This document shows, piece by piece, positions 14,601 through 16,016 of a stretch of DNA of 38,551 bases. Below the pieces are notes generated by a model, which was not told the DNA's origin, searched no databases, and was given only the letters and a program-made list of their open reading frames with translations. The stretch's first letter is position 1. Each line of letters begins with the position of its first letter. The position numbers and the translations under genes are program-made. This DNA is from Candidatus Heimdallarchaeota archaeon (GTDB lineage Archaea > Asgardarchaeota > Heimdallarchaeia > Heimdallarchaeales > Heimdallarchaeaceae), in assembly GCA_023705985.1 (NCBI GenBank), contig BPTO01000009.1:1-38551 (forward strand). The letters run 5' to 3'.

Positions 14601-16016
14601 TTACAATTCCTTTAATAATCTTCGAAAATCATTCAGCCATCTAGATGTTTGAAATTCTAGTTGCTCACAATCTTTTTCACTAATTACTTCACTAGGTTTG
14701 TATTTTGAAATAACATCTTTCCAGTTTTTCATATCTTCAAGAGCCCAGTAATCTTTAGGTGTAGATGGAAAATTATTAAGGATGTGTATCATTTCTTCGA
14801 TATCAGCTAAAAGAAGTTCTGCTTTTGCTATTGATCTTAATCTAGTCAGATCTATAAGCTCTATTGCTGCTGAAACGAAATCTGCGGTCTTTGAAGGTAG
14901 TTTTTTCAAAGAATCAAATGGTATAGTAATAGCTTCTTTTGTTTCTAAACCTTCTGCCATCCTCAAATGACTTATCCCTTTTGGACATCTTTCATCTAAC
15001 TTTTCTTGTTTAATAAACTGTTCAAGTTTGAATCCTATTTTTTCTAGTTTAATTCGAGCCTTGAATATATTTCTAATTAAGGAACGTAGTTGTTTCTTAT
15101 AGGGTATTGATTCTATTTCGTTATTTTCGTAATTTAGAGCTAAATTATCAAGTGTGATAATTGAAGCATATAATTCGGCTTCTAAATCAAGTTTATTACT
15201 CATCTTTTCATCCATCCTGCTACCTGAGCTTGTCTGTATGAAACTTAGTTTCTTTTCAGCTTTATAACTTTCTCTAGAATATTTCTTAGATAATTTAAGA
15301 AAGTCGATAGCTGATAAGTCTCCGTCCTCAAATTTCTCTTCCAAGTTTTCCAAAACTTCTTGAACTGCATACATTTCAGATTTCAAAACATCTTTTTGTG
15401 ATATTTCAATCTCGGATTTACCTCTTTGAATAGCTACACCCTGTTTTTCAAGTAATCTTGTTCTTTCTTTTTCAATTTCTTTCGAAACACTTTCAATTTG
15501 TTTTTGATATTCTAGGATATCTTCTTCTATAACTGTTTTCTCGACATTTTGCTGCTTTTTTGTATCGACTTGAGGAGACAAAGAAACTTGTCTTATTTGA
15601 GCTGTAGGTATTCTAGCAACCGGTAAAACCGTTTTTCGTCCCTCTGTTCTTTGCTTTCTTTTTTTAGTTTTATATGGTCTTGCAGGAACGCGAATAAACA
15701 ACTGTTTGATATCTCTTATTACTTGATAAATATGAATACTTTGATTCCACTGAGCTAAAATGCGCAAACTTAAAGAGTCATCATCTTCCATATTGGGATG
15801 GTTAACTCTAGGTGTGATTAAAACAAGAGGTTGTTGAGAAGGGAAATCCAAGGGAATTTTGATTTCTGCATAAATTGGAATTGAAGTGCCTGAAACAGTA
15901 CCTACTTCACCCTTCCAATGTCTTAAATTGTCATTAACCGGCTCAAATCCACTTTCATTGTCATAGATTAATTGCATTTCAGTTGCAAGAAGGTAGTCTT
16001 CTGTAATTTTTGCCAC
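14601..16016 (-). CDS. ESCRT-I fusion candidate: UEV (E2-like, catalytic Cys absent) + steadiness box (Vps23/TSG101-like) + Vps28
   Basis: E2 fold motif HPNMEDDDSLSLRIL...W with Ser83 at the E2 Cys position; MYAVQEVLENLEEKFEDGDLSAIDFLKLSKKYSRE steadiness-box-like; residues ~275-471 follow Vps28 N-core and C-terminal four-helix domain. Confidence 0.8.
   Translation of the reverse strand: MAKITEDYLLATEMQLIYDNESGFEPVNDNLRHWKGEVGTVSGTSIPIYAEIKIPLDFPSQQPLVLITPRVNHPNMEDDDSLSLRILAQWNQSIHIYQVIRDIKQLFIRVPARPYKTKKRKQRTEGRKTVLPVARIPTAQIRQVSLSPQVDTKKQQNVEKTVIEEDILEYQKQIESVSKEIEKERTRLLEKQGVAIQRGKSEIEISQKDVLKSEMYAVQEVLENLEEKFEDGDLSAIDFLKLSKKYSRESYKAEKKLSFIQTSSGSRMDEKMSNKLDLEAELYASIITLDNLALNYENNEIESIPYKKQLRSLIRNIFKARIKLEKIGFKLEQFIKQEKLDERCPKGISHLRMAEGLETKEAITIPFDSLKKLPSKTADFVSAAIELIDLTRLRSIAKAELLLADIEEMIHILNNFPSTPKDYWALEDMKNWKDVISKYKPSEVISEKDCEQLEFQTSRWLNDFRRLLKEL

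Follow-up and report, generated by a model that had tools for sequence, protein, structure and literature searches.

The window analysed here, a 38,551-nucleotide stretch of Heimdallarchaeal DNA, contains an ESCRT gene cluster that encodes two ESCRT-III proteins, Vps4, a Vps25-like protein, Vps22, a fusion protein, an E1-like protein and ubiquitin, and this set matches the cluster around HeimAB125_14070. The fusion gene (471 aa) occupies 14601..16016 on the minus strand, with a GTG start at 16016 and the stop at 14601, and was identified by Pfam and by its orthologues; an earlier note on this DNA had given its coordinates exactly and left the strand unstated. All parts of the fusion lie in one frame, beside vps22. 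The neighbouring E1-like ThiF protein (16087-17088, minus strand) gave a weak match to ubiquitin-like domains in its C-terminal part (residues 273-319), as expected of an E1 ubiquitin-fold domain. The ubiquitin (17253-17489, minus strand) ends in GGY, so that conjugation requires the prior removal of one residue; a scan of window proteins recognised no deubiquitinase. A 472-aa protein (7535-8953, plus strand) lying where the ESCRT cluster ends carries several N-terminal CxxC pairs and gave no significant Pfam match; by description, it resembles the Asgard-specific zinc-ribbon/PH/coiled-coil/steadiness-box protein of PMC10936438.

In the Pfam scan, VPS28 (PF03997) matched residues 280-468 of the fused protein (E 1.1e-12, 48.6 bits against a cut-off of 24.5), spanning positions 2-188 of the 188 in the model, and UQ_con matched residues 25-116 above its cut-off (9.2e-9, 35.5 bits). 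Vps23_core was detected at 213-251 slightly under its cut-off (E 4.8e-5, 23.7 bits, cut-off 26.8), and UEV (PF05743) at 36-107 under a cut-off of 27 (0.0034, 17.7 bits), which is the scoring threshold of a mainly eukaryotic model and no mechanistic feature. Among 42 clusters of fused homologues, all matched UQ_con and VPS28, and 41 matched Vps23_core and UEV, the UEV matches being counted at E up to 0.01. The AlphaFold model of the fused protein (mean pLDDT 76, pTM 0.41) was usable for the domains and unreliable for their mutual placement; it showed an E2-like fold up to residue 109, a helix at 153-191, hairpins at 207-262 and 270-325, and a helical region at 375-470, with strands and helices at the places predicted from the domain assignment. 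The best 50 matches in a whole-chain Foldseek search were E2 structures, and this search was uninformative on the Vps28 half.

The N-terminal domain (residues 1-110; 15687..16016, minus strand) had been read in the earlier note as a UEV with Ser83 in place of the E2 Cys, and the Pfam matches, an alignment with UbcH5b and the E2-like fold all agreed with this reading. In the alignment, Ser83 fell on the catalytic Cys of UbcH5b; this position is Ser in 39 of the 42 fused homologues and Cys in none, and Cys is absent from residues 61-110 in every one of them. Since UQ_con and UbcH5-type E2s outscored the UEV model, we considered whether the domain might instead be an active ubiquitin-conjugating enzyme. 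Besides the missing Cys, on which we rejected this identity, the model argues against it: the fold ends after the E2 core with helix 96-109 and a disordered linker (residues 118-153, pLDDT <50; 15558..15665, minus strand), and the two C-terminal E2 helices are missing. Furthermore, the same genome contains two other E2-fold genes, and the orthologue HeimAB125_14070 binds ubiquitin non-covalently (PMC9192718). An active E2 is therefore highly improbable, and the UEV assignment is retained.

Downstream of the linker, a long helix predicted by AlphaFold (residues 153-191; 15444..15560, minus strand) presumably forms a coiled-coil stalk, by analogy. It is followed by the Vps23 steadiness-box hairpin (residues 207-262; 15231..15398, minus strand), supported by the Vps23_core match and the model and in agreement with the position proposed before (~210-262). 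The N-terminal part of Vps28 spans residues 270-354 (14955..15209, minus strand), with its hairpin at 270-325, and an hhalign comparison showed this hairpin to be homologous to that of the steadiness box (probability 93%, P 3.3e-7). The C-terminal helical domain of Vps28 (residues 375-470; 14607..14894, minus strand) is expected by homology to bind ESCRT-II. A profile built from the C-terminal half matched 2j9w, a solved structure of the Vps28 C-terminal domain (E 3.3e-6), as well as yeast Vps28 in the ESCRT-I cores 2caz, 2f66 and 2p22 (E 0.002-0.004). The resemblance of this half to Vps28, which the earlier note had singled out for checking, was thus confirmed, including a C-terminal four-helix domain like 2j9w at ~375-471. 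Its Vps28 N-core at ~275-365 stood on the VPS28 and yeast core matches, but the Cys of the 'LDxxCP' motif placed within it is unconserved in the family, where Tyr is usual.

In eukaryotes, ESCRT-I consists of the subunits Vps23/TSG101, Vps28, Vps37 and Mvb12. The window protein resembles this assembly in that a UEV, a stalk helix, a steadiness box and the N-core and C-terminal domain of Vps28 follow one another as expected. It differs in that Vps23 and Vps28 form one chain and in that E2 models fit its UEV sequence better than the UEV model does. A further difference is that no Pfam match to Vps37 or Mvb12 was found among the 13 window proteins scanned, the fused chain included.

We then considered the distribution of the fusion. 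A fused frame of 467-490 aa was present in 22 of the 24 genomes of the window's family, the other two containing contig-end fragments; the two parts were accordingly fused in all 22 evaluable genomes. Within the class (GTDB genomes), VPS28 occurred in a frame of 467-490 aa only in this family, and among the matches listed from 232 genomes across the phylum, none outside it had a frame of the fused length; frames of ~800 aa in two families (f18 and f19) matched the C-terminal part of Vps28 only. One fused homologue, P0040 (54% identical), is labelled Bathyarchaeota at source and probably comes from a mis-binned contig. Other families have the two genes split, and at the 30 such loci compared (~25 genomes, some counted twice, from the same order and class together with Sifarchaeum and Borrarchaeum), vps28 immediately follows vps23 on the same strand. 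These pairs share with the fusion the same domains in the same order, adjacent on one strand, but consist of two frames with a start codon of vps28's own; within the same order, most loci show an overlap of 17-47 bases between the frames, and elsewhere the gap reaches up to ~100 bases. Stand-alone Vps28 is itself variable in length: in the sister genome G024 (L038 / L033), it has an N-terminal extension of ~100 aa in a 309-aa frame, and vps28 frames of 304-322 aa were observed in three more genomes of the phylum.

Because both genes are separate and adjacent in sister families, their joining by a frameshift or an assembly error is easy to imagine. However, the identical fused frame recurs in 22 independent genomes and in the 42 protein clusters, which are 50-94% identical, and on this conservation we rejected an assembly artefact, whose probability is negligible; the fusion is genuine, as the earlier note had held. 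Given a long fused frame in one family and adjacent split genes elsewhere, the fusion is best seen as a derived join of neighbours, and the simplest reading of the distribution and gene order is that vps23 and vps28, adjacent and often overlapping, would have been joined once, in the ancestor of the family.

The Vps23-Vps28 fusion is already published, with biochemistry, for a close relative's orthologue (Hatano et al. 2022, PMC9192718), and the earlier note had guessed correctly that Asgard ESCRT-I fusions of this kind might have been reported. In that study, HeimAB125_14070 is described as a Vps28 domain fused to a UEV-Vps23-like structure with a coiled coil and a steadiness box. The protein was purified, and both the full-length form and the isolated UEV gave ubiquitin-dependent crosslinking, which was weakened by ubiquitin V45D; it was also stated to dimerise and interacted with Vps22 in a two-hybrid assay. 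According to the same study, Asgard archaea have no clear Vps37. HeimAB125_14070 (P0021 in our set) is 58% identical to the window protein over its full length and shares its domain order and gene neighbourhood; it belongs to another genus, and the window copy differs in weaker Shine-Dalgarno-like pairing at Met268 (see below).

Taken together, these results identify the window protein, with high confidence, as the Heimdallarchaeal ESCRT-I fusion, an orthologue of HeimAB125_14070, and the same confidence extends to the mechanism as a whole; the weak match to the UEV Pfam model and the unreliable domain arrangement in the AlphaFold model count against it. The Cys-less UEV would bind ubiquitin on tagged cargo, as is known from the orthologue, while the long helix and the two tandem steadiness-box-type hairpins would form the stalk and headpiece. 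The assembly is probably a dimer; both ubiquitin binding and dimerisation are carried over by analogy from HeimAB125_14070. The Vps28 C-terminal bundle would then recruit ESCRT-II, that is, the Vps22 encoded two genes on, as the two-hybrid result for the orthologue suggests, and this recruitment would lead to ESCRT-III and Vps4.

Next to the fusion gene, 14219..14533 on the minus strand encodes a 104-aa protein with no significant Pfam match. Within the class, all 24 genomes of the window's family encode it, as do all nine of a second family (f6) and none of the rest, and it adjoins vps28 wherever compared; its orthologue HeimAB125_14060 is unmentioned in the main text of PMC9192718. The protein was modelled as a four-helix bundle (pLDDT 94.5), and its best matches among solved structures were the Vps28 C-terminal domains 2j9w and 2g3k (TM 0.71-0.80, weak Foldseek E-values of 0.07-0.35); against 2j9w, the TM was 0.75-0.77 and the rmsd 2.1. 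Profile alignment with Vps28-C was non-significant (hhalign probability below 1%) and gave no support for homology at the sequence level. A steadiness-box or Vps37-type subunit was likewise unsupported, since hhalign comparisons with both hairpins were non-significant and the predicted four-helix bundle had Vps28-C as its best fold. From fold likeness and gene position, we predict that this neighbour is a further Vps28-C-like domain and a possible accessory subunit. Makarova et al. 2024 (PMC10936438) describe Vps28 C-terminal domains that have a gene of their own in Asgard archaea, and the neighbour would be a member of this kind: like them, it has a predicted Vps28-C-like bundle and is encoded beside a full Vps28, but the likeness lies in the predicted fold only, the sequence profiles not being significantly aligned.

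A second feature bears on the composition of the complex. Met268 (ATG at 15213..15215, minus strand) is the sole invariant internal Met in the 42 fused homologues. It sits in a variable linker with indels to either side, and no other of the 87 invariant columns is set in a more variable context. Stand-alone Vps28 begins no more than about three residues from this position, and residues 268-471 (204 aa) match free Vps28 in size. No second Vps28 or Vps23_core gene was found in the window's genome (~90% complete). These observations raise the possibility, as a refinement of the ESCRT-I fusion identified above, that ribosomes also start at Met268 and yield a free Vps28 of 204 aa from the same gene.

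Conservation of synonymous codons around Met268 was measured against an expectation specific to the species pair and the amino acid, with other genes as a control, because variable columns favour close pairs. Codons 259-273 gave a synonymous ratio of 1.58, the highest of ~2500 internal windows in 12 neighbourhood genes; the best window in any other of these genes reached 1.43, and low-coverage windows elsewhere had a mean of 0.99 (s.d. 0.12, maximum 1.35). The peak still ranked first without Ser codons, and the start windows of the fused gene, Vps22 and Vps4 were also high, as expected of true starts. These ranks are no formal probabilities, given overlapping windows and related species, and they derive mostly from the largest genus (g2), which weakens the case for an internal start.

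The evidence from ribosome-binding sites was mixed. In L025, GGAGG is found eight bases upstream of the Met268 ATG, which favours initiation there, but pairing at this position was strong only in Ca. Heimdallarchaeum endolithica and moderate in some members of the largest genus; in the window's genus, it was weak (-3.9 and -2.4 kcal/mol), and the Met268 column ranked 24th of 458. Shine-Dalgarno strength is, in any case, non-discriminating, the fused gene's own start being weak too. A literature search found no internal start in Heimdallarchaeal ESCRT, and a truncated form is unmentioned in the available text of PMC9192718. On balance, initiation at Met268, by which ESCRT-I could contain extra Vps28 and depart from a fixed 1:1 composition, is possible but rather unlikely. 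A similarly guarded view applies to the fuller proposal that the fused gene still uses the old vps28 start and makes both the fusion and free Vps28, which, together with the neighbour, might supply two or more ESCRT-II docking modules for each ubiquitin-binding UEV.

Two readings in the earlier note need to be restrained accordingly. The description 'single-polypeptide ESCRT-I' was overstated, with no Vps37 or Mvb12 found in the chain, an orthologue said to dimerise and a next gene predicted to be Vps28-C-like. The suggestion that the fusion would fix a 1:1 stoichiometry requires that the gene yields nothing besides the fused chain, and the conservation of Met268 permits a free Vps28; if the internal start is real, the fusion does not fix this ratio. 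Met268 conservation, dimerisation of the orthologue and the Vps28-C-like neighbour thus place both the fixed ratio and the whole ESCRT-I in one chain beyond the evidence.

The fusion would combine the reading of ubiquitin and the recruitment of ESCRT-II in one unit in relatives of eukaryotes, which is already published. The present analysis adds that, in the phylum sample, the fusion is restricted to one lineage, a single family, with its split precursors still visible in sister families, and that a 104-aa neighbour with a predicted Vps28-C-like fold accompanies it. What is new is a hint, from the conservation around an internal start codon, that suggests a separate product of the second half of the gene. 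Whether fusing two genes truly fixes a subunit ratio can be tested sharply at Met268; if the hint is true, joining the genes did not do so in this family.
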